In this document: in pieces, positions 9,251-24,396 of the stretch
Position numbering within the stretch: the first letter of the stretch is position 1
How the letters are laid out: the number at the start of each line of letters is the position of its first letter
Position numbers and translations under genes: made by a program
NCBI GenBank assembly: GCA_024642505.1
Contig: JAHEAZ010000001.1
Coordinates: forward strand, 1-64,000
DNA from: Gammaproteobacteria bacterium
GTDB lineage: Bacteria; Pseudomonadota; Gammaproteobacteria; Steroidobacterales; Steroidobacteraceae
Length of the DNA stretch: 64,000 nt
Direction of reading: 5' to 3'
The notes under the pieces: model-generated
The model's database searches: none
What the model was told of the DNA's origin: nothing
The model's input: the letters and a program-made list of their open reading frames with translations, nothing else

Positions 9251-11005
9251 ATGCCAATCCGTCAATTGCCAGACAACCTGGTCAACCAGATCGCCGCCGG
9301 CGAGGTGGTCGAGCGGCCGGCTTCGGTGGTCAAGGAACTCGTCGAGAATGCGCTGGACGCGGGTGCCTGCCGGGTGGCGGTGGACGTCGAGCGCGGCGGC
9401 ATAGGCCTGGTCAGGGTCCGGGACGACGGCGGAGGAATCGATGCCGACGAGCTGCCGCTCGCACTTGCGCGCCACGCTACCAGCAAGATTGCCTCGCTCG
9501 ACGATCTCGCAGGTGTGAGCTCACTCGGTTTCCGGGGCGAAGCGCTGCCGTCGATTGCCTCCGTTTCGCGACTCACCCTGATCTCGGCGGTCCCTGGCGG
9601 GGGCGCAGTCGAGGTCGAGGCGGTTGACGGAGTGATCTCCGCCCCGCGTCCGTCAGCGCATCCTGCTGGAACGACGGTCGAGGTTCGTGACTTGTTCTAC
9701 AATGTGCCAGCGCGTCGCAAGTTCCTGCGTACCGAGTCGACCGAATACCAGCACGTGTTGCGTACGCTCACCCGGCTGGCCATGTCCCGCTTCGATACCG
9801 GCTTCACCCTGACCCACAACCGGCGTGAGGTCTTTTCACTATCGCCTGCCGGTGAACGGATCAGCCAGGAAGAGCGAATAGCGCGCCTGGTCGGGGCCGA
9901 GTTCATTTCCCATGCCTTGTACATCGAGCACGAGTCTGCCGGGCTCAGGTTGTCCGGCTGGCTTGGCTTGCCGACCTACGCGCGCGGACAGGCAGACCAG
10001 CAGTACCTGTTCGTCAACGGGCGCATGGTCCGTGACCGACTGCTCGGCAATGCAGTCCGGCTCGGCTACCAGGATGTGCTGTACGGAGGTCGCCAGGCCG
10101 CCTATGTCCTGTACCTCGAACTGGACGGCACACAGGTCGACGTAAACGCCCATCCCCAGAAACTGGAACTCAGGTTCAGAGACGGTCGGCACGTGCACGA
10201 CTTCGTCTTCCGTAGCGTGGAGCAGGCGCTGGCGGCCACGCGTCCTGATAGCGCCCACGGCGGTTCGGCCAGCACTGCGTCCTTGCTGGGCCCGACCGGC
10301 CTGTCTCAGGCGGGGCTAGGGCTCGGCGAGCCACGCCCGCCCGCGGGTGCCGGCGACTGGACCAGACTGGCGCAGAACCTTCCATCGGAGCAAGAGACCG
10401 GAGCGGCTGGTGGGGGCGATATGCCTGCGCTCGGTTATGCGCTGGCGCAGCTGCACGGAATCTTCATTATCTCCCAGACTGCGGACGGAATCGTCCTCGT
10501 GGACATGCATGCGGCGCACGAGCGGGTCATCTACGAACGGCTCAAAGCGGGACCCGAGTCCGGGCGCGCCGAGCGGCAGGCGCTGCTGGTGCCCGCGGTG
10601 ATCGCAGTGAACGAGGAGGAAGCAGTCCTTGCCGAGCAGCACGCCGACGAGCTTGCCGAGGCTGGGCTGGTTATCGACCGGCTGGGACCCGAGCGACTCG
10701 CCGTTCGCGAGCTGCCAGCGGTGCTGGCAGGCTGCGATGCGGGGGCACTGCTTCGCGATGCGCTGTCGGACCTCGCTGAGCATGGCGCCACCCACAGGAT
10801 CGTCGAGAAGCAGAACGAGCTGCTCGCGAGCATCGCGTGCCGGGCGGCGGTGCGCGCGCGCCGCAACATGACCTTGGCCGAGATGAACGCCCTGCTGCGC
10901 GAGATGGAGAAGACCGATCGCGCGGACCAATGTAATCACGGCCGGCCGACCTGGACGCGGATATCGCTCGAGGAACTTGACCGGCTGTTCTTGCGCGGCC
11001 GCTGA
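9251..11005 (+). CDS. mutL: DNA mismatch repair protein MutL
   Basis: GHKL ATPase that links MutS to downstream nicking. The N-terminal motifs are textbook: IRQLPDNLVNQIAAGEVVER, VRDDGGGID, ATSKI, SLGFRGEALPSIASV, and GTTVEVRDLFYNVPARRKFL. The C-terminal dimerisation domain has IVLVDMHAAHERVIYERL, the E. coli-like form without the DQHA(X)2E(X)4E endonuclease motif, as expected in an organism using MutH/Dam or neither. Length 584 aa. The linker near residues 330-390 is variable. The miaA start follows 2 nt after the stop. Confidence 0.96.
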   Translation: MPIRQLPDNLVNQIAAGEVVERPASVVKELVENALDAGACRVAVDVERGGIGLVRVRDDGGGIDADELPLALARHATSKIASLDDLAGVSSLGFRGEALPSIASVSRLTLISAVPGGGAVEVEAVDGVISAPRPSAHPAGTTVEVRDLFYNVPARRKFLRTESTEYQHVLRTLTRLAMSRFDTGFTLTHNRREVFSLSPAGERISQEERIARLVGAEFISHALYIEHESAGLRLSGWLGLPTYARGQADQQYLFVNGRMVRDRLLGNAVRLGYQDVLYGGRQAAYVLYLELDGTQVDVNAHPQKLELRFRDGRHVHDFVFRSVEQALAATRPDSAHGGSASTASLLGPTGLSQAGLGLGEPRPPAGAGDWTRLAQNLPSEQETGAAGGGDMPALGYALAQLHGIFIISQTADGIVLVDMHAAHERVIYERLKAGPESGRAERQALLVPAVIAVNEEEAVLAEQHADELAEAGLVIDRLGPERLAVRELPAVLAGCDAGALLRDALSDLAEHGATHRIVEKQNELLASIACRAAVRARRNMTLAEMNALLREMEKTDRADQCNHGRPTWTRISLEELDRLFLRGR

Positions 11006-11007
11006 TC

Positions 11008-11967
11008 GTGGAAGGTCCGGCCATTCTCCTGATGGGTCCGACCGGCGCCGGCAAGACCAATGTTGCGGTCGAGCTGGCCACCAGACTGCCAGTCGAGATC
11101 GTCAGCGTGGATTCCGCAATGGTGTTCCGCGGCCTGGATATTGGCACCGCGAAGCCCGACCTGGCCGTTCGCGCCCGGGCGCCCCATCACCTGGTGGACA
11201 TCCTCGACCCTGCCGAGCGGTATTCGGCCGGGCGGTTCCTCTGCGATGCGCGGGCGGCGATGGTGGGCATTCGACGCCGCGGGCGCATTCCACTGCTTAC
11301 CGGCGGGACCATGCTGTACTTCCGCGCCCTCCAGTCCGGGCTGGCCGAACTACCCACGGCGGATCCCGAGCTCCGCCGCCGCATCGACGAACGGGCGGCT
11401 GCAATGGGTTGGCCGGCCCTTCACGCGGAGCTTGCGGGGCTGGATCCGGCTGCAGCGGCCGGGATCCAGCCAAACGACCGGCAACGGATCCAGCGCGCCC
11501 TGGAGGTCATCGAGCTGACTGGGGAGACGGTCAGCTCACGGCGGCGTGAGAATCTCCGGCGGGCCACCCGGCGAGGTGACCTGAAGCTGATTCTCGCGCC
11601 GGGCGACCGCGAGTCGCTGGCAGCGCGCATCGTCGGTCGATTCGCCCGAATGATGGAACTCGGGCTGCTCGACGAGGTTCGAAGTCTCTACCAGCGCGGC
11701 GACCTGGGGCCGGGGTTGCCGTCCATTCGAGCAGTGGGGTACCGGCAGCTATGGGATCACCTGGAAGGAAAGTGCGCGCTCGAGGAAGCAGCCAGACTGG
11801 CCGTGGTGGCCACGCGGCAGCTCGCCCGCAGGCAGCTGACATGGCTCAGGGCCGAGCCGGAGACGGAATGGTACGACCCCCTTGTTTCGGGCTCGTCGGC
11901 CCAAATAATGAGTCGGGTGGAGTCGTGGCTCAACGCACAGGCAGGTCAGGAAGCCCCCCTGTGTTAA
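11008..11967 (+). CDS. miaA: tRNA dimethylallyltransferase
   Basis: Adds a dimethylallyl group to A37 of tRNAs reading U-starting codons. P-loop LMGPTGAGKTNVAVELA, VSVDSAMVFRGLDIGTAKPD, APHHLVDILDP, LLTGGTMLYFRAL and AVGYRQLWDHLEG are all intact. The GTG start lies 2 nt after mutL, suggesting coupled translation. Length 319 aa. The order mutL-miaA-hfq-hflX is the standard gammaproteobacterial superoperon. Confidence 0.96.
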   Translation: MEGPAILLMGPTGAGKTNVAVELATRLPVEIVSVDSAMVFRGLDIGTAKPDLAVRARAPHHLVDILDPAERYSAGRFLCDARAAMVGIRRRGRIPLLTGGTMLYFRALQSGLAELPTADPELRRRIDERAAAMGWPALHAELAGLDPAAAAGIQPNDRQRIQRALEVIELTGETVSSRRRENLRRATRRGDLKLILAPGDRESLAARIVGRFARMMELGLLDEVRSLYQRGDLGPGLPSIRAVGYRQLWDHLEGKCALEEAARLAVVATRQLARRQLTWLRAEPETEWYDPLVSGSSAQIMSRVESWLNAQAGQEAPLC

Positions 11968-11979
11968 TATTTCAAGCTT

Positions 11980-12002
11980 CGCCGGAGACTTTTTGTCCGG
12001 CG
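11980..12002. other. Hairpin between miaA and hfq
   Basis: CGCCGGA / TCCGGCG forms a 7-bp stem with a 9-nt loop (GACTTTTTG). No T-tract follows on either strand, so this is not a standard terminator. It sits in the 121-nt gap before hfq and may be part of the hfq leader. Confidence 0.35.
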
Positions 12003-12034
12003 ACACAGGTCACAGCACCAAGGAAGGTTGCCTC

Positions 12035-12067
12035 ATGATCCTCGTGTTGGCACAGAAGAATTCTTAG
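12035..12067 (+). CDS. Candidate 10-codon leader peptide upstream of hfq
   Basis: A tiny reading frame MILVLAQKNS with stop TAG begins 7 nt after a strong Shine-Dalgarno AGGAAGG (12021-12027) and ends 21 nt before the hfq ATG. It is too short for composition tests, but a good ribosome binding site, ATG and short spacing to hfq make translation plausible. It could tune hfq translation. It is also possible that the AGGAAGG is coincidence. Confidence 0.3.
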   Translation: MILVLAQKNS

Positions 12068-12088
12068 AAATAACAAGGAGATAACGAG

Positions 12089-12343
12089 ATGGCCAAAGGT
12101 CAGTCGCTGCAGGATCCGTTCCTGAACGCCTTGCGCAAGGAACGCATTCCTGTATCCATCTACCTGGTCAACGGCATCAAGCTTCAGGGCCAGATCGACT
12201 CGTTCGACCAGTTCGTCGTACTGCTCCGGAATACCGTGAGCCAGATGGTCTACAAGCACGCCATCTCGACCGTCGTCCCGGCTCGCAACGTCCGCCTGCC
12301 GTCGCAGGAAGACGGTGAAGTCAAGGAAGGCGAGACGGAGTGA
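12089..12343 (+). CDS. hfq: RNA chaperone Hfq
   Basis: Sm-like hexameric chaperone for sRNA-mRNA pairing. It has [39 protein letters not shown] (Sm1), and [20 protein letters not shown] (Sm2 with the YKHA motif), all nearly identical to E. coli. The C-terminal tail is short and acidic (84 aa in total). AAGGAG sits 8 nt before the ATG. It is followed by hflX after 30 nt. Confidence 0.98.
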
Positions 12344-15962: not shown

Positions 15963-17291
<1,329 letters not shown>

Positions 17292-17346
17292 AAAATGGGA
17301 CAGTCCCCTTTCTTGGGATGCAGGAAAGCGGACTGTCCCCATCTTT
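17292..17346. repeat. REP-like inverted repeat, probable bidirectional terminator
   Basis: Imperfect inverted repeat of about 22 bp with a short loop (GGGATGC): left arm begins AAAATGGGACAGTCCCCTTT and the right arm is its near complement ending GACTGTCCCCATCTTT. T-runs flank both arms on the outgoing strands. It fills the gap between convergent purA and the minus-strand gene that ends at 17351. The core GGGACAGTCCC is shared with the element at 4571. Confidence 0.7.
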
Positions 17347-17350
17347 GTGG

Positions 17351-18037
17351 CTAGTGGCCGCCTGAGAGCAAGCGCTGCATCAGTTCACGTTCGCGTCGCT
17401 CGATGACTGCGAGGAACTCGGTCGCTCCGCCCATTCGCTTGAATGCCGCGTAGCCGCGCTCGAGGAAGTCCTGCAGCTGGCCGTAACCGGCTGCATGGGC
17501 TGGCCCGCGCGCGATTCGAATGGCGATGCCGACCTCCGGCCGCTGCGCCAATGAGTCCAGCAGCCTGCCGATATCGTCCACCAGGGCGATCTGGCGATCT
17601 CGGTCCTCCACCTGTCCGGTCGCCCGGTACGCGACCGCGTAGCTGATCGCATCGGGCTGTCGTTCATCCGTCAGCTGGGCTGCAGTCGCAGCGTCGAGTT
17701 CGATCGTCAGTACGTGCAACTCAAATGCCCGCAGCAGGGCATCCAGCGCGGCGGATGGCAGGAAGCGTTTGAGCTTGTCGAGCGCGCGAATAACCTGTTC
17801 GTCACGATCACTCAGGTCATGGGGACCGTAAAGGTCCGCCAAGAAGAAGTCCACTGCGTCACGGTAGCGTCCGTTCGCACGAAGCTCGGCATAGGTCGCC
17901 GCCAGCCGCCGTGACTGGAAAGAAGCAAGCGCGCGCACCCGCTGCTGCAGGCCCGGCTGACTCGCGGTCCTACCGACGGTCTCGCGGTAACGGGAAACCA
18001 GGTCGTCGAGCCGCTGCCTGACTTGCTCGCGATCCAT
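17351..18037 (-). CDS. Conserved hypothetical protein of a lipid-storage cluster
   Basis: A 228-aa soluble, mostly helical protein rich in Arg and Leu. A recognisable core is DAVDFFLADLYGPHDLSDRD, then LDKLKRFLPSAALDAL, and a C-terminal LQDFLERGYAAFKRMGG; I recall similar FFL-x-LYGP-x-D proteins in other proteobacteria but know no assigned function. No signal peptide, membrane segment or catalytic motif is visible. It starts 13 nt after the patatin-like gene, so the two are probably co-transcribed, which hints at a role beside lipid handling. Confidence 0.7.
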   Translation of the reverse strand: MDREQVRQRLDDLVSRYRETVGRTASQPGLQQRVRALASFQSRRLAATYAELRANGRYRDAVDFFLADLYGPHDLSDRDEQVIRALDKLKRFLPSAALDALLRAFELHVLTIELDAATAAQLTDERQPDAISYAVAYRATGQVEDRDRQIALVDDIGRLLDSLAQRPEVGIAIRIARGPAHAAGYGQLQDFLERGYAAFKRMGGATEFLAVIERRERELMQRLLSGGH

Positions 18038-18050
18038 GCCGCTGCTGGAG

Positions 18051-19274
18051 TCAGGCCCGCTCGGTGACCAGGCGCTGCAGCCGCTTTAGCGTCCGGTCGA
18101 GTTCCTGCAGTACCCGCGCATTGGAGCGACGTTGCTGCTCGAGTGAGGCGTGGAAGCTGCGGTGCTCGTCCCGCAGGACTGATCGCCGTAGCCGCAAACC
18201 GTGGCGCGCCAGTACCGGCTCCAGCCTGGTCGCATGCCGCCTGAGATCGGCGCGCACCCGCTGGTAGGCGTGGTCCACCAGACGCCGGCGGTCGGCGTAA
18301 CGGAATACGTTGGCGAAGAACATCTGCGCGTCGTCCCGGTCCGGCTCGAACAACAGGATATCGGCCTCCGGGAAGCGCGAACCATAGCCTGCCATTCCGA
18401 CCAGCATCCGCGACTGGATCAGCGAGCGGAATGTCTGGCCCAGAACCACGGCGAGGCCGCGGTCAATGAGCTCGCCATCCGGCTTGTGGCGGCCGCCGCG
18501 CGAGGCGTCAAAGGCCACCAGTGGGTTAATGCAGAACACCAGGTCTGCGCCGTCGTCGAGCACCAGCGAGGCGTGCATCGTGCGCAGAAGTGCGCCATCG
18601 GCGTACACCTGTCCGTCGATCTCCACGGGCGGGTAGAGGCCGGGCAGCGCGGTGCTGGCCTGGATTGCCCTCGATATCGGCACATGGTCCATGCCCGGCG
18701 TCCCGAAGCGTGCGGCCTCGCCCGTGTTCAGGTCGGTGGCGACGATATACAGCCGCCGCTTCAATTCACGGAAGTCGTTGGTCCGACCCCGTGTGCTGAA
18801 TACGTTGCGCAGGAAGTCCTCGAGCGGCGAGCCGTCGAAGATACCGTTGGGCAGTGCCGCGGTGAGCGGGTCGAGGACTTCGGCGAGGTTGCGCGAGAGC
18901 GGCGCGCGGGCATAGTAACCAAGCACCTTGAGCGCAAGGCCCGGAATCTTCGCAATGCGACGCCCGAATTCACGGTAGGCCGGGTGCAGGAAAATCCCCG
19001 GATGGGCGCGGAACTCCGGCGACTCGTTGGTGATAATCAGCCGCCCGATGTCGAGGGGACTCAAGCCGTTGGCAAGGCCGGCCGCCAGCATCGATCCTGA
19101 ACTCACGCCGACGTAGCCGGACAGGTTGTTGAGATCGAGTCCCTCGATGCTCTCGGCAATCGCCTGCAACGCGCCAAGCTCGAAGAATGCTCCCACCGGG
19201 CCGCCACCGGCCAGGGCGACAGCGATTCGCGCGCCATTGCGGCGAGGTCTGCTTGCCAGTTGCGGAGTCAGCAT
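18051..19274 (-). CDS. Patatin-like phospholipase family protein
   Basis: Ser-Asp dyad acyl hydrolase. The oxyanion GGG motif is in VALAGGGPVGAFFELGAL, the nucleophile elbow is GVSSGSMLAAG, and the catalytic Asp is in QVYADGALLRT. Length 407 aa, with a long Arg-rich C-terminal helical extension containing LDRTLKRLQRLV. No signal peptide, so cytoplasmic. It lies directly downstream of the phasin gene and upstream of a hypothetical, with a wax-ester acyltransferase nearby, so it may act on granule lipids; the substrate is inferred. Confidence 0.88.
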   Translation of the reverse strand: MLTPQLASRPRRNGARIAVALAGGGPVGAFFELGALQAIAESIEGLDLNNLSGYVGVSSGSMLAAGLANGLSPLDIGRLIITNESPEFRAHPGIFLHPAYREFGRRIAKIPGLALKVLGYYARAPLSRNLAEVLDPLTAALPNGIFDGSPLEDFLRNVFSTRGRTNDFRELKRRLYIVATDLNTGEAARFGTPGMDHVPISRAIQASTALPGLYPPVEIDGQVYADGALLRTMHASLVLDDGADLVFCINPLVAFDASRGGRHKPDGELIDRGLAVVLGQTFRSLIQSRMLVGMAGYGSRFPEADILLFEPDRDDAQMFFANVFRYADRRRLVDHAYQRVRADLRRHATRLEPVLARHGLRLRRSVLRDEHRSFHASLEQQRRSNARVLQELDRTLKRLQRLVTERA

Positions 19275-19301
19275 GGCTGCCTCCTGGCCTGGGTCACGCG
19301 A

Positions 19302-19844
19302 TCAAGTCCCACCCGGCGGCACGATGCCGGAGCGCGAACCGGTCCGCTTGACCGCACGCGCCTTGCCGGGCCTCTTGCGGGCCGGTGCCACCTTCTTTGG
19401 AACCGGCCTGGCGCGCGCCAGCTTGTCTACGCTGTGGGTGAGCTCGTTGACCTTGCGGGTCAGCGCGGTGATCTCCTCCGCAGTCGGCATTCCGAGCTGG
19501 TGTAGGGCCCGCTGGACACGCGTCTGGAAGATCTTCTCCAGATTGTCCCAGGTCTCGGTGGCCTGTCCCTTGACGTCGCCGACACGGCGGTTGACGGATT
19601 TCTGTGCGCCCTGGAAGGCCTGCATGACGACCTTCTGGGCCGTATCCAGCGCGCTGCCCTGGAGCTTTGAGCCCTCGCTCACCAGTTCCTCGAAGAACCT
19701 GGTGCTTCCCGACTGTGCGCGGGACATGGCGCCCAACCCGGCAGACCAGATCTGGTTGGCGGAATACAGCAGGTTCGTGTCGCGCTTGGCCCGTTCCTTC
19801 CGGGACTTGGCTCCGCCAAGCTTGCCTTTCTTCTTCACAGCCAT
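19302..19844 (-). CDS. Phasin-family granule-associated protein (PhaI/PhaF-like)
   Basis: A 180-aa protein with a basic N-terminus (MAVKKKGKLGGAKSRKERAK), a phasin-like helix (ANQIWSAGLGAMSRAQ, then FFEELVSEG), heptad-rich middle (VNRRVGDVKGQATETW), a coiled-coil piece ITALTRKVNELTHSVDKLAR, and a Lys/Pro/Ala-rich C-terminal tail resembling histone-like PhaF tails. Such proteins coat polyhydroxyalkanoate granules and may tie them to DNA. No PHA synthase is in the window, so it may coat wax-ester or other lipid bodies. The first gene of the phasin-patatin-hypothetical transcript. Confidence 0.85.
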   Translation of the reverse strand: MAVKKKGKLGGAKSRKERAKRDTNLLYSANQIWSAGLGAMSRAQSGSTRFFEELVSEGSKLQGSALDTAQKVVMQAFQGAQKSVNRRVGDVKGQATETWDNLEKIFQTRVQRALHQLGMPTAEEITALTRKVNELTHSVDKLARARPVPKKVAPARKRPGKARAVKRTGSRSGIVPPGGT

Positions 19845-19972
19845 GATCCACTCCTTGCCGCGCGTGGTTCGATACCGTTACCTTGACGCCAAGAATAACC
19901 CGTTTCCGGCATCTGCGGCGTCGTCGCGCCTGCGTGATGTCGCGTCAGTATTTGCCGCAGGAGGAAAATCTC

Positions 19973-20830
19973 ATGGCCGGTGCGCAGTGGAGCAAGTTTC
20001 CCTACGATCAGAAATCCTGTTCCTACGCCGGGCCTGCGCTCAAGAAGGCCTGGCCTCGCCTTCACGCCGGCGATCTCGAGCCATATCCAGAGCCGGCGGC
20101 TCTGGCCAGGCTGGCTGGCGCGAAGGTCGATGGACCGGTCCCGGGCTTCAAGGGTAGTTTCGATGACCTGGCACCGCGCCTGCAGGAGGCCTGGCGCGCT
20201 TTCCACCGTGGTGATTTTCAGGAGGCGACCGCTCAGGGAGTGAAGCTGGGACCGCTCGGCGCGTCGGTGGCGAACAAGGCGGCGGCTGTCTACTGCACCT
20301 ACCTCGAGGACGATGACAAGCGCGCGGTACGCATCCTGACCGATGCCGCGACCCGCGGCGAGGAGGTCTGCCGAAAGCTGCCTCAATATCCGAACGCCTG
20401 GTATTTTTATGCGTTTGCGCTCGGCAGGTATGCGCAACGCATCTCGGTCCTCAAAGCGCTTGGAGAGGGCATCGGCGGCAAGGTGCAAAAGGCGCTCGAG
20501 ACCGTCATCAAACTGGAACCGAAGCATGCCGACGGCCATATCGCGCTCGGAACCTACCATGCGGAGATCATTGACAAGGTGGGTGCGCTCGCCGGGCGAC
20601 TGACCTACGGTGCCGACCGCGGCAAGGCGATCAAGTATTTCGAGAGGGCGATCCAGCTGAATCCGCAGGTTGCGATCGGCTACATGGAGTATGGCAACGG
20701 CCTGCTGCTGCTGGAGGGCGAGAAGAAGCAGGGCGAGGCCGTCAAGCTGTACCGAAAAGCCGCGGCCTGCAAGCCCGCCGACGCGATGGAGAGGCTGGAT
20801 GTCGAGCAGGCAAAGGTCGAACTGGAGTGA
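19973..20830 (+). CDS. TPR-like helical repeat protein, unknown function
   Basis: A 285-aa protein. The C-terminal half reads as tetratricopeptide-like repeats (GKVQKALETVIKLEPKHADG, GKAIKYFERAIQLNPQVAIG, GEAVKLYRKAAACKPADAME). The N-terminus (SKFPYDQKSCSYAGPALKKA) is unique to it as far as I can see. No signal peptide or membrane segment. The ATG is fixed by AGGAGG about 8 nt upstream. It is divergent from the phasin gene and convergent with the acyltransferase gene, so it may be part of the lipid cluster as a scaffold; that is only positional inference. Confidence 0.78.
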   Translation: MAGAQWSKFPYDQKSCSYAGPALKKAWPRLHAGDLEPYPEPAALARLAGAKVDGPVPGFKGSFDDLAPRLQEAWRAFHRGDFQEATAQGVKLGPLGASVANKAAAVYCTYLEDDDKRAVRILTDAATRGEEVCRKLPQYPNAWYFYAFALGRYAQRISVLKALGEGIGGKVQKALETVIKLEPKHADGHIALGTYHAEIIDKVGALAGRLTYGADRGKAIKYFERAIQLNPQVAIGYMEYGNGLLLLEGEKKQGEAVKLYRKAAACKPADAMERLDVEQAKVELE

Positions 20831-20836
20831 CGGGCC

Positions 20837-22270
20837 CTACGCGACCGCCTGCAGGTAGGGGCCGAGCAGTACCGCGAGCAGGATCGACTCGAATTCGCGA
20901 CCGAATCTCGCAGCGATGACGCCCGGGTCTGCCACCCGCTTGCGGTCGGTGATCAGCCCGAATTGTACCTTGCCGTTATAGCTCAGGATGCTGATGCCGA
21001 GGCCGATGTCGCCCGACTGGGGTACCCAGAACATCAGTTGCGCAATACGGCTGCCGGCGACGTATAGCTGGTGCGCGGGACCGGGCACGTTGGAGGCGAC
21101 CAGCGTTGCCTTTTGCGAAAGCAGGTTGATGGCGACATTCTCGAAGGGTTCTCCCAGCATCCCCAGCGCGGCCATGAGTCCGAGCATCAGCACCGGCTGG
21201 TAACTGCCCTTCAGTCCCGACATGCCCTGGCGAACCGCCTCGACTCGCTCCAGCGGATTACGGATGCCGATCGGCAGGTCCAGGAACACCAGTCCGAACT
21301 GGTTACCCAGGCCGTCATCGTGGTGTGCGTCTCGCAGGTTGACCGGAACGGTCGCCCGGATGCTGAGCCCGGCCGTGTCCTCGCCCCGATCGCGCAGGTA
21401 GCCGCCCAGCGCACCGGCCGCCGCGGCCAACAATACGTCGTTGATGGTGCAGTCCAGAGCTCGTGCGACCACGCGCACCTCCTCGAGCGGCAGGGGTTCA
21501 GCCCAGGCGGCCAGCTTCCTCGCGCCCAGTTTTCCCTTGAACCGTGTCGGCGGATCATCGGCAAGGGCCGCGACACGAATCAGCTCCGCCGCCGCCCCGA
21601 TCGCATGGCGTGCCATGTCGTTGGCATGGTCAGGGTGGCGGGCCATGTCGATGATCTTGCCGAGCCAGTCGGCTCCTCCCGTGACCGCGGTCCTGACCAG
21701 GGCGGCGCCGGGAATGGGTAGCTGGCCGATGAGCCCCAGGGCCCGCCCAGGGTGGATCGCCGACCTGTGCCCTGCAGCCGTCGGCATCTGGGTGATCGGG
21801 TCAGGTTGTCGCTCGGTGTCAGTCAGCGACAGGAAAACCCGGGTCAAGGCGATGCCATCGGCGTAACAGTGATGAATGCGCATGATCACCGCTGCACCGC
21901 CAGCGTAGTTGTCCACCAACTGGAATTGCCACAGCGGCCGGCGCGGATCGAGCTTGACACCTGCCAGGTCGGACACCAGTGCTTCCAGCTCGACCTTACC
22001 TGCCGGCGCGGGCAGGGCTACCCGGCGCACATGCGAGTCGAGATCAAAGTCGTGGTCGGGCACCCAGGCGGCTGAAACCACGTCGTCCACCGGCCGGTAG
22101 CGGAAGCGTTCGAACTTGAGGAAGCGCTCCGCGATGACCTGCCTGAAGCGCGCAAAATCCAGCGGTTCGTCGAGGATCCATACCCCGACGATCATCATCA
22201 GGTTGGTGGCTCGGTCCATGCGCAGCCACGCGGTGTCCACCGCGGACATGCGCTCTCTTTCGGCTGACAT
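20837..22270 (-). CDS. Wax ester synthase / diacylglycerol acyltransferase (WS/DGAT)
   Basis: Acyl-CoA dependent O-acyltransferase that makes wax esters or triacylglycerol. The catalytic HHxxxDG motif is present as MRIHHCYADGIALT near residues 130-142, preceded by the PLW motif (RRPLWQFQLVDN). The ND motif lies in ALDCTINDVLLAAAAGAL and the SNVPGP block in LVASNVPGPAHQLYVAG. Length 477 aa matches the family; an internal ATG 21 nt in could be the real start. It is divergent from a fatty acyl-CoA reductase, the enzyme that supplies its fatty-alcohol substrate, across a 137-nt region holding a 32-bp palindrome. Confidence 0.94.
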   Translation of the reverse strand: MSAERERMSAVDTAWLRMDRATNLMMIVGVWILDEPLDFARFRQVIAERFLKFERFRYRPVDDVVSAAWVPDHDFDLDSHVRRVALPAPAGKVELEALVSDLAGVKLDPRRPLWQFQLVDNYAGGAAVIMRIHHCYADGIALTRVFLSLTDTERQPDPITQMPTAAGHRSAIHPGRALGLIGQLPIPGAALVRTAVTGGADWLGKIIDMARHPDHANDMARHAIGAAAELIRVAALADDPPTRFKGKLGARKLAAWAEPLPLEEVRVVARALDCTINDVLLAAAAGALGGYLRDRGEDTAGLSIRATVPVNLRDAHHDDGLGNQFGLVFLDLPIGIRNPLERVEAVRQGMSGLKGSYQPVLMLGLMAALGMLGEPFENVAINLLSQKATLVASNVPGPAHQLYVAGSRIAQLMFWVPQSGDIGLGISILSYNGKVQFGLITDRKRVADPGVIAARFGREFESILLAVLLGPYLQAVA

Positions 22271-22323
22271 ATCAAGCTCTGGGGCGGGATGGGCTATGCT
22301 TACCAGGTAACTATAACCGGTTC

Positions 22324-22355
22324 GGCCAGCAGGGGGAGCGCTCCCCCTGCTGGCC
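22324..22355. promoter_or_regulatory. 32-bp perfect palindrome between divergent lipid genes
   Basis: A loopless inverted repeat of 16 bp per arm, GGCCAGCAGGGGGAGC followed by its exact reverse complement. It lies between the WS/DGAT start and the acyl-CoA reductase start. No T-tract follows, so it is unlikely to be a terminator. A second weaker dyad, GGTAACTATAACC, lies just on the acyltransferase side. A shared operator is a reasonable reading; a REP-type element is the alternative. Confidence 0.6.
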
Positions 22356-22407
22356 CGTGTTCAGCCGAGGCGCTGGGCCAGGAAGGGGTCCCGGCGGGGA
22401 GTTGTAT

Positions 22408-24396
22408 ATGAGCTATTTCGTCACCGGCGCAACCGGATTCATCGGTCATCACCTGGTCGCGCGGCTGCTCGAGCGCGGCGGTATGGTCTATGTGCTGGTC
22501 CGGCCGCAATCGAAGGCCAAGTTCGAGGCGCTGAAGTCGGTGTGGGGCCGGCGCGCGCGCAGGGTGATTCCGATTGCCGGCGACCTGGCCGAGCCTAACC
22601 TGGGTGTGTCTGCCGCCGATCGCAAGCGCCTGAAGGGCAAGATCAGCCACATGTTCCACCTCGCCGCGGTCTACGACCTCAAGGCTGGCGCTGAGGAGCA
22701 GGACGAAGCGAACGTCCTTGGTACCGATCATGCGCTGCAGTTTGCCGCGAACGTCAAGGCGGGCTGCTTCCACCTCGCAAGCTCGATCGCAGCGGCCGGC
22801 CAGTACCGCGGTACCTTCCGCGAGGACATGTTTGAGGAAGCCACCGGGCTGGACCACCCGTACTTCCGCACCAAGCACGAATCCGAGGCGCTGGTACGCA
22901 AGCGCTGCAAGGTGCCGTGGCGCGTCTATCGGCCGGGAATCGTCGTTGGGCACTCGGAGACCGGCGAGATCGACAAGGTCGACGGACCCTACTACTTCTT
23001 CAAGATGATCCAGAAGCTCCGGCAGACGCTGCCTGCCTGGTTCCCGCTGATCGGCTTCGAGGGCGGCTACATCAACATGGTGCCGGTGAACTTCGTCGCC
23101 GACGCCATGGACCACCTCGCGCACCTCGACGGACATGACGGAGAGTGCTTCCATCTCACCGATCCGCGTCAGCGCCGCGTGGGCGAGGTGCTCAACCTGT
23201 TCGCCAAGTCCGGGCACGCGCCGACCATGGCTTTCCGGCTCGACCCCAAGCTGTTCGAGTTCATTCCGGGCGGCGTGACCAAGTCGATGACCCACTACAA
23301 GCCGCTGCAGCAGATGATCGACACCATCCTGCGCGACCTGCAGATGCCGAAAGACGTGCTCAGGTTCTCCAATTGGCAAACGCGGTTCGACTCGACCCAG
23401 ACCCAGAGGCTGCTCGACGAGGCCGGCATCCGCGTGCCGCAGCTCGAGGACTACGCCTGGCGGCTGTGGGACTACTGGGAGCGCCACCTCGACCCGGACC
23501 TGTCCCTCGACCGCAGTCTCGCCGGCGCGGTGCGCGGCAAGGTGGTGATGATCACGGGCGGGTCGTCGGGCATCGGTCTGGCGGCGGCTGAGCGCTGCGT
23601 GGTGGCCGGCGCCAGGGTGATCATCGTGGCGCGCGACCCCGAGAAGCTTGAGTTGGCACGAGCCCAGCTGGCCGACCTGGGCGAGGTGCACGTCTATGCC
23701 TGCGACATTGCGGACCTCGGGGCCTGCGATGAATTTGCCAGCAAGGTGCTGGACAAATTCGGTGGCGTCGATGTACTGGTCAACAATGCGGGCCGGTCGA
23801 TCCGCCGCTCGATCGACCTTTCCTACGACCGCTTCCACGACTTCGAGCGGACCATGCAGCTCAACTACTTCGCTGCGATCCGCCTGACCATGAACCTGTT
23901 GCCCTCGATGCTGGCGCGGGGTAGTGGCCACGTGGTCAATATCTCGTCGATCGGCGTCCTTTCCAACGCACCGAGATTTGCCGGCTACGTATCGTCGAAG
24001 GCGGCACTGGAGGCCTGGACCCGATGCGCCGCCGCGGAACTCGCCGACCGCGGCGTCACTTTCACGATCATCAACATGCCGCTGGTACGTACGCCGATGA
24101 TCGCGCCGACCAAGATCTACGACCAGATGCCGGTGGCGACACCTGACGAGGCTGCGGACATGGTTGCCGAGGCTATTATCGACCGCCCGAAGCGGATCGC
24201 GACGCGCCTCGGGCTGTTTTCGGAGATGCTGCATCTGGCCGCGCCGCGGGTGTCGGAGGTGATGATGAATACCGCGTACAAGATGTTCCCGGATTCGGCC
24301 GCAGCCAAGGGCGAGGCCAAGGACAAGCCGAAGGACTCGAAGCCGACGCCGGAGGCGGCCATCTTCGCTTCGCTGCTGCGCGGAGTGCACTGGTAG
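22408..24396 (+). CDS. Two-domain fatty acyl-CoA reductase (alcohol-forming, Marinobacter Maqu_2507 type)
   Basis: NADPH-dependent four-electron reduction of acyl-CoA to fatty alcohol. The N-terminal extended-SDR domain has TGATGFIG at residues 6-13, LVRPQSKAKFEAL, HLAAVYDL, and the YFRTKHE active-site Tyr-Lys. The linker includes YRPGIVVGHSETGEIDKVDG. The C-terminal classical SDR domain has ITGGSSGIG near 381, VNNAGRSIRRSIDLSYDRFH, and YVSSK near 526. It closely matches the Marinobacter enzyme along the whole length as I recall it, including the FPDSAAA and final RGVHW segments. Length 662 aa. The ATG at 22408 gives the family N-terminus MSYFVTG. It pairs with the divergent WS/DGAT. Confidence 0.93.
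   Translation: MSYFVTGATGFIGHHLVARLLERGGMVYVLVRPQSKAKFEALKSVWGRRARRVIPIAGDLAEPNLGVSAADRKRLKGKISHMFHLAAVYDLKAGAEEQDEANVLGTDHALQFAANVKAGCFHLASSIAAAGQYRGTFREDMFEEATGLDHPYFRTKHESEALVRKRCKVPWRVYRPGIVVGHSETGEIDKVDGPYYFFKMIQKLRQTLPAWFPLIGFEGGYINMVPVNFVADAMDHLAHLDGHDGECFHLTDPRQRRVGEVLNLFAKSGHAPTMAFRLDPKLFEFIPGGVTKSMTHYKPLQQMIDTILRDLQMPKDVLRFSNWQTRFDSTQTQRLLDEAGIRVPQLEDYAWRLWDYWERHLDPDLSLDRSLAGAVRGKVVMITGGSSGIGLAAAERCVVAGARVIIVARDPEKLELARAQLADLGEVHVYACDIADLGACDEFASKVLDKFGGVDVLVNNAGRSIRRSIDLSYDRFHDFERTMQLNYFAAIRLTMNLLPSMLARGSGHVVNISSIGVLSNAPRFAGYVSSKAALEAWTRCAAAELADRGVTFTIINMPLVRTPMIAPTKIYDQMPVATPDEAADMVAEAIIDRPKRIATRLGLFSEMLHLAAPRVSEVMMNTAYKMFPDSAAAKGEAKDKPKDSKPTPEAAIFASLLRGVHW

Follow-up and report, generated by a model that had tools for sequence, protein, structure and literature searches.

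Conserved linkage of phasin and patatin genes to predicted wax ester synthesis genes in Gammaproteobacteria

Results

Gene content and layout of the cluster

The stretch of DNA analysed here (the window; 64,000 nt of contig JAHEAZ010000001.1 from a member of the Steroidobacteraceae, assembly GCA_024642505.1) contains a cluster of six genes at positions 17351-24396 that encode a phasin, a patatin-family hydrolase, a wax ester synthase/diacylglycerol acyltransferase (WS/DGAT), a two-domain acyl-CoA reductase of the alcohol-forming type, a TPR-like protein and a protein with an FFLEELY motif. An earlier reading made from the sequence alone (the sequence-only reading) had proposed a lipid-storage cluster with these genes, and the identities were confirmed by curated families for all but the TPR-like protein, the only one of the six proteins that did not pass a family cut-off. 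The conserved hypothetical protein listed in that reading corresponds to the FFLEELY-motif protein.

Three of the genes form a tight run on the reverse strand, spaced 27 and 13 bp apart, consisting of the phasin (19302-19844, 180 aa; PF05597, 117 bits with a cut-off of 28.8, and TIGR01837, 96.8 bits with a cut-off of 94.7), the patatin (18051-19274, 407 aa; PF01734, 89.6 bits with a cut-off of 27.7) and, as the end gene, the FFLEELY-motif protein (17351-18037, 228 aa; NF047641, 215.7 bits with a cut-off of 55). The gene for the TPR-like protein (19973-20830, forward strand, 285 aa), with an ATG start and AGGAGG upstream, diverges from the phasin across a 128-bp intergenic region (19845-19972) defined by the sequence and the gap between the genes. 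As described in the sequence-only reading, the WS/DGAT (20837-22270, reverse strand, 477 aa; TIGR02946, 412 bits with a cut-off of 310) and the reductase (22408-24396, forward strand, 662 aa from its ATG; PF07993, 170 bits, PF00106, 177 bits, and NF005539, 947 bits with a cut-off of 549) are also divergent, across 137 bp (22271-22407). This distance follows from the placement of the reductase ATG at 22408, while the scan and alignment of the reductase started at the second codon (22411). No shared regulator of the divergent gene pairs was found. The region between the WS/DGAT and the reductase contains a 32-bp perfect palindrome (22324-22355), unique within the window at a minimum arm length of 11 and a maximum loop of 8, which is absent from the loci fetched from relatives; the one locus that has it (L009) belongs to the window's own genome. 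The cluster is flanked by purA (15999-17291) on one side and by a TonB-dependent receptor, tRNA-Leu, rnr and rlmB on the other. An inverted repeat with GGGACAGTCCCC-like arms, spotted by eye between the convergent purA and FFLEELY genes (17291-17350), is possibly a terminator or a dispersed repeat.

Synthetic enzymes and phasin

The WS/DGAT has an intact HHxxxDG motif, which reads HHCYADG, and in sequence comparison matches the solved chains 7nxg (O-acyltransferase WSD) and 6chj. Eight cluster WS/DGATs from relatives share 46-70% identity with it, compared to 24-28% for the paralogues in its own genome. The reductase combines an N-terminal PF07993 domain with a C-terminal short-chain dehydrogenase/reductase (SDR) domain, and two Rossmann motifs (TGATGFIG and TGGSSGIG) and two YxxxK motifs can be read from the translation. 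Its top-scoring model, NF005539, bears only the name 'SDR family oxidoreductase'; based on the domain layout, the protein is predicted to be an alcohol-forming acyl-CoA reductase of the Maqu_2507 type that performs a four-electron reduction. The neighbouring reductase suggests that the product of the WS/DGAT is wax ester rather than triacylglycerol (TAG).

The phasin model, of low confidence (mean pLDDT 65.4), has helices at residues 12-44, 48-116 and 122-145 and a disordered basic tail, and the most amphipathic 18-residue stretch begins at residue 128. Basic tails are common to the 31 related phasins listed, in which the last 35 residues include 6-13 lysines and arginines versus 0-4 aspartates and glutamates, and are reminiscent of PhaF. 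Basic C-terminal tails rich in proline, alanine and arginine, resembling those of the phasins, were also observed on three cluster WS/DGATs (L017:10833-12326, L018:11175-12674 and L021:2124-3719). TetR regulators of the PF13972 family occur beside or near phasin genes in three settings (L011:7430-8329, L060:11274-11930 and L065:13804-14484), where acyl-CoA-responsive control is possible.

Conservation of the gene order and carriers without a detected PHA synthase

A profile built from ten phasins matched 32 loci in contigs of named genomes, five of which bear the Steroidobacteraceae name. The conservation of the phasin, patatin, WS/DGAT and reductase neighbourhood, a check put forward in the sequence-only reading, is evident amongst these loci, with the patatin present in 31, the reductase in 27, the WS/DGAT in 26, the TPR-like protein in 26 (two of them fragments, in L037 and, at a contig end, in L030) and the FFLEELY protein in 24 (tblastn, E<=1e-5). 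In half of the six loci that lack the WS/DGAT (L030, L055 and L059) the contig stops <=400 bp upstream of the phasin, while L037, L040 and L049 have no WS/DGAT at the usual position, with the L040 contig beginning inside the reductase gene. Chance adjacency was rejected as an explanation because 26 of the 32 loci, as well as loci from other families (see below), show the phasin-WS/DGAT linkage.

Polyhydroxyalkanoate (PHA) synthases were sought with PhaC_N (PF07167) and, only in the window's genome (G000) and the 32 locus genomes, with the class III model TIGR01836. A PhaC_N match is present in 14 of the 32 genomes and a class III match alone in one (G070), leaving 17 genomes with neither. Sixteen of these 17 carriers possess exactly one WS/DGAT, and none was found in the remaining genome (G091), for which the contig is cut at the phasin. 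The WS/DGAT is inside the cluster in 14 of the 17 and elsewhere in L049 (Silanimonas), while L055 and L059 are among the truncated loci mentioned above. In a tree of 31 phasins, which takes in 17 of the 32 loci, the phasins of these loci and of the window form one clade (support 100/99) that spans genomes with and without PhaC. The six PhaC-less members placed there fall in one sub-lineage of this main clade, with L049 outside. The second phasin of the window's genome (see below) has a very long branch, which leaves its placement uncertain.

Co-occurrence with WS/DGAT in the family and the class

Co-occurrence was explored in a sample of 60 genomes from the family, where PhaC was judged by PhaC_N alone; nine of the 32 loci (L028, L029, L035, L036, L037, L042, L051, L054 and L058) are on contigs matched in length by contigs of this sample, so the two overlap. 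Genomes were mostly drafts and the Fisher tests throughout ignore kinship. The phasin orthologue and the WS/DGAT were each found in 11 of the 60 genomes and together in 10 (p = 1.6e-9), such that the WS/DGAT is present in 10 of 11 phasin carriers and one of 49 non-carriers. A lack of co-occurrence between this phasin and WS/DGAT in other genomes had been named in the sequence-only reading as evidence that would count against it, and the opposite is clearly the case. The mismatches are G008, with the phasin only, and G055, with the WS/DGAT only. In all 10 genomes with both, the WS/DGAT domain match lies <=1.7 kb from the phasin match. The link to PhaC_N is weak (9 of the 11 genomes with the phasin and 26 of the 49 without it; p = 0.08), and 26 of the 35 genomes with PhaC_N over the cut-off, some through weak partial matches only, lack a cluster-type phasin. 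Two genomes of high completeness (G018, 99%; G038, 98%) have the phasin and WS/DGAT <2 kb apart and no PhaC_N match.

A similar pattern was observed in a wider sample of 184 Gammaproteobacteria (completeness floor of 90; PhaC again judged by PF07167 alone). Counted over the cut-offs, phasins are present in 10 genomes (of 14 at E<=0.001), WS/DGAT in 12 (of 13) and PhaC_N in 43 (of 45). WS/DGAT occurs in 8 of the 10 phasin genomes and 4 of the 174 others (p = 7.7e-10; 9.4e-9 without the window's genome), or in 9 of 14 when the phasins below the cut-off are added (G113 is the one of the four dropped genomes with WS/DGAT). PhaC_N occurs in 5 of the 10 phasin genomes and 38 of the 174 others (p = 0.055). 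Three genomes (G212, G216 and G239) possess the phasin and WS/DGAT without a PhaC_N match. Linkage of the two genes recurs outside of the family: in L060 a WS/DGAT 50% identical to that of the window is followed directly by a phasin (135.9 bits), a TetR gene and an AMP-binding gene of the acyl-CoA ligase type, and in L065, from a genome with no PhaC_N match, a phasin, a patatin with a DUF3336 domain (10623-12152), a TetR gene and a WS/DGAT are found within ~6.6 kb. In L066 the reductase, phasin, patatin and TPR-like genes are grouped and the WS/DGAT is 65 kb off. In the phasin stretches of G097, G216 and G239, tblastn recognised no cluster gene besides the phasin, and in G216 and G239 the phasin itself went unscored.

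PHA synthases and paralogues in the window's genome

The draft genome to which the window belongs comprises 3.1 Mb in 156 contigs (completeness 96.5, contamination 4.2), with the window on contig C151. No PHA synthase match occurs inside the window, as the sequence-only reading had stated, but its extension to the organism is rejected, as the genome encodes a PHA synthase of the class I/II type on contig C4 (a full PhaC_N domain, 190.9 bits, and a GYCIGG box) and a class III PHA synthase on contig C35 (506.9 bits) adjoining a PhaE subunit (148.9 bits). PHA storage is thus possible in this organism. Given the contamination value, the PhaC contig could be foreign, but PhaC_N is also present in all three genomes of the same genus in the family sample. 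A second, divergent phasin (51.6 bits) is located on contig C120, next to a TetR gene of the PF13972 family. The other point named as counting against the wax-ester proposal, a separate PHA synthase locus with phasins of its own, is borne out by half: the genome has synthases and another phasin, but not on the same contig. The description of the cluster as self-contained holds for its gene content, but the genome has four additional WS/DGAT genes elsewhere. One of these paralogues, on C4 (L010:3194-6195), adjoins a HAD-acyltransferase ~5 kb from PhaC; a layout of WS/DGAT with HAD-acyltransferase has been reported for TAG synthesis (PMC10351704).

Patatin, FFLEELY and TPR-like proteins

The GGGxxG, GxSxG (S58) and DG (D226) motifs of the patatin are invariant across eight aligned orthologues, and the gene adjoins the phasin in 31 of the 32 loci. 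Its position in the cluster makes the protein a candidate wax ester/TAG lipase; no DUF3336 match was found in the window's patatin. Six loci (L038, L041, L051 at 10699-11610, L054, L058 and L059; domain scan on L051 and L058) have an alpha/beta-hydrolase gene between the patatin and FFLEELY genes, possibly a second candidate lipase. A PHA synthase was not detected for four of these loci (L041, L051, L054 and L059), while L038 has the class III type only and L058 has PhaC.

The FFLEELY protein is confidently modelled as all-helical (mean pLDDT 93.5). Foldseek returned no match at E<=0.001 to solved structures, and the best VIA-align hit (Z of 6.0 over 127 residues) was to unrelated helical bundles, which is silent on function or fold novelty. 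A literature search for FFLEELY returned no report, and three of the cluster proteins had no match in PHROGs. The TPR-like gene is in the block as the sequence-only reading had it, but the TPR assignment stays below threshold (best match 25.9 bits with a cut-off of 26.8); the protein is a possible scaffold.

Discussion

The cluster is probably a conserved neutral-lipid-body locus in which the phasin natively coats wax ester/TAG bodies. Judged from the predicted functions, the two-domain reductase would convert acyl-CoA to fatty alcohol, which the WS/DGAT would join with another acyl-CoA to form wax ester, with TAG also possible, and the product would gather as a lipid body. The phasin would sit on the body surface via its amphipathic helices and restrict size and coalescence, while its basic tail may tether the bodies to the nucleoid, a role reported for PhaF. 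The patatin, encoded in one run with the phasin, would hydrolyse the ester when the cell needs it, accessory functions would fall to the TPR-like and FFLEELY proteins, and the divergent promoters could set synthesis and coating jointly. The proposal that the phasin acts on wax-ester bodies, already made in the sequence-only reading, gains from the co-occurrence and adjacency with WS/DGAT and from the retention of the phasin in 17 genomes without the tested PhaC types, but loses its premise that a PHA synthase is lacking, which is wrong genome-wide. In the window's own PHA-capable genome, the phasin could act on PHA granules and neutral-lipid bodies alike.

Several observations weigh against a phasin devoted to wax ester/TAG bodies. 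With two PHA synthases in its own genome, the window's phasin may serve PHA. WS/DGAT is not beside the phasin in L040 and L049, and the N-terminal half of the phasin orthologues in L021, L025 and L056 is shortened, which may weaken a coat role there. As six of the PhaC-less genomes in the tree represent one lineage, with L049 apart, the 17 carriers amount to few independent events. Class-wide, WS/DGAT and PhaC_N are mutually correlated (p = 0.0012), so a shared storage lifestyle may explain part of the signal, and the PF05597 phasins of G101 and G237 (L076 and L077), which occur with neither WS/DGAT nor PhaC_N, indicate that the family has other roles. Lastly, locus L037 of G008 holds an open phasin frame of 155 aa (L037:8956-9420) and the TPR fragment between purA and rnr, without the WS/DGAT, patatin or reductase, in a genome that has PHA synthases and no WS/DGAT. 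The cluster appears to have decayed here around a retained phasin, which counts against an exclusive wax-ester role.

The PHA synthases of the window's genome and the phasin left in L037 would also suit an ordinary PHA phasin, with the phasin and patatin acting as granule coat and depolymerase and placed beside the wax-ester genes by accident. A precedent exists in Synechocystis, in which one operon, linked to polyhydroxybutyrate (PHB), encodes both a PhaF-like phasin and a patatin, and mutation of the phasin alters the number of PHB granules (PMC7203880). This reading is unlikely, considering that neither PhaC_N nor TIGR01836 matched in 17 of the 32 carriers, that most PhaC_N genomes of the family sample lack a cluster-type phasin and that the link to WS/DGAT is far stronger than the link to PhaC. 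A phasin that coats any hydrophobic body, PHA or wax ester, in a general storage locus is a possibility of more substance, if still a doubtful one, and overlaps with the wax ester/TAG coat in the case of the window's genome. It would account for phasins in genomes with and without PHA synthases and for G008, with its phasin and PHA synthases but no WS/DGAT, and PhaP1 of Ralstonia eutropha is reported to associate with TAG inclusions in TAG-accumulating hosts that express it (PMC6273058), which also speaks for the wax ester/TAG coat. Against it stand the second, divergent phasin of the genome, which could serve PHA, and the 26 of 35 PhaC_N relatives without a cluster-type phasin. It is quite improbable that the cluster has no part in storage, with the reductase and WS/DGAT producing a wax or long-chain ester for structural use or export and the phasin, patatin and FFLEELY protein engaged in membrane or stress functions. 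The FFLEELY and TPR-like proteins without an assigned role, the PF05597 proteins of G101 and G237 and the TonB-dependent receptor adjoining the cluster would fit such a function, but the six cluster genes gave no match to an exporter family, and a phasin and patatin beside WS/DGAT suit coating and mobilisation.

The cluster phasin belongs to the same family (PF05597, TIGR01837) as the PhaF/PhaI-type phasins of medium-chain-length PHA (mcl-PHA) granules and shares their helical core and basic C-terminal tail. In the usual pha gene order, PhaF/PhaI-type phasins are encoded beside phaC, whereas the genomic partners of the cluster phasin are WS/DGAT, reductase and patatin, and it is kept where a PHA synthase is undetected. 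The phasin-phaC adjacency of an mcl-PHA locus was not found in the window's genome (contigs C4 and C35 versus C151; phaZ and phaD were not searched for). The wax-ester pathway of Marinobacter and Acinetobacter has the same combination of a two-domain reductase and the WS/DGAT family, with Maqu_2507, which has the two-domain layout, likened to the reductase by this layout and not by sequence; in contrast to that pathway, the putative coat and lipase genes are here within one conserved cluster. A patatin hydrolase acting on a coated neutral-lipid body, as proposed here, would resemble the eukaryotic patatin-domain TAG lipases ATGL, Tgl3/4/5 and SDP1. Tgl3/4/5 and SDP1 have a DUF3336-patatin layout, which is also carried by L065, whereas the window's patatin has no DUF3336 match and its substrate is predicted from the cluster only. 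TadA/HBHA, from a different protein family and phylum than the cluster phasin, offer a further likeness. They are proposed structural proteins of wax ester/TAG droplets, on actinobacterial TAG inclusions, and a review table assigns phasin to PHA bodies and TadA/HBHA to wax ester/TAG bodies (PMC8478749).

PhaF is reported to attach granules to the chromosome and thereby share them between daughter cells (PMC7203880). The Synechocystis slr0058-slr0061 operon resembles the cluster in bringing a PhaF-like phasin and a patatin together, and differs in its link to PHB by mutant phenotype and in the lack of any mention of a WS/DGAT or reductase in the excerpts of that paper (PMC7203880). Among betaproteobacterial scaffolds with WS/DGAT, a metagenome study describes one with a putative phasin, read there as part of PHA metabolism, and two others with Maqu_2507-like reductases (PMC10351704). 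Among the matches listed in openly licensed literature, mostly titles and abstract openings, no paper placed a native phasin on wax-ester bodies.

The conserved phasin beside WS/DGAT, kept where a PHA synthase is undetected, provides a named candidate coat for the wax-ester bodies of Gram-negative bacteria, with a candidate lipase adjacent, and cautions that a phasin gene should not by itself be taken as evidence of PHA storage. It is conceivable, as a tentative extension that may well not hold, that a dedicated PF05597 lineage is the native coat of wax ester/TAG bodies in Gram-negatives and that the six-gene set is a complete locus to build, coat and mobilise them, the bacterial counterpart of perilipin and ATGL. 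If this is true, the class-wide link between PF05597 and WS/DGAT would imply that a substantial share of the 'PHA' phasin family serves neutral lipid.

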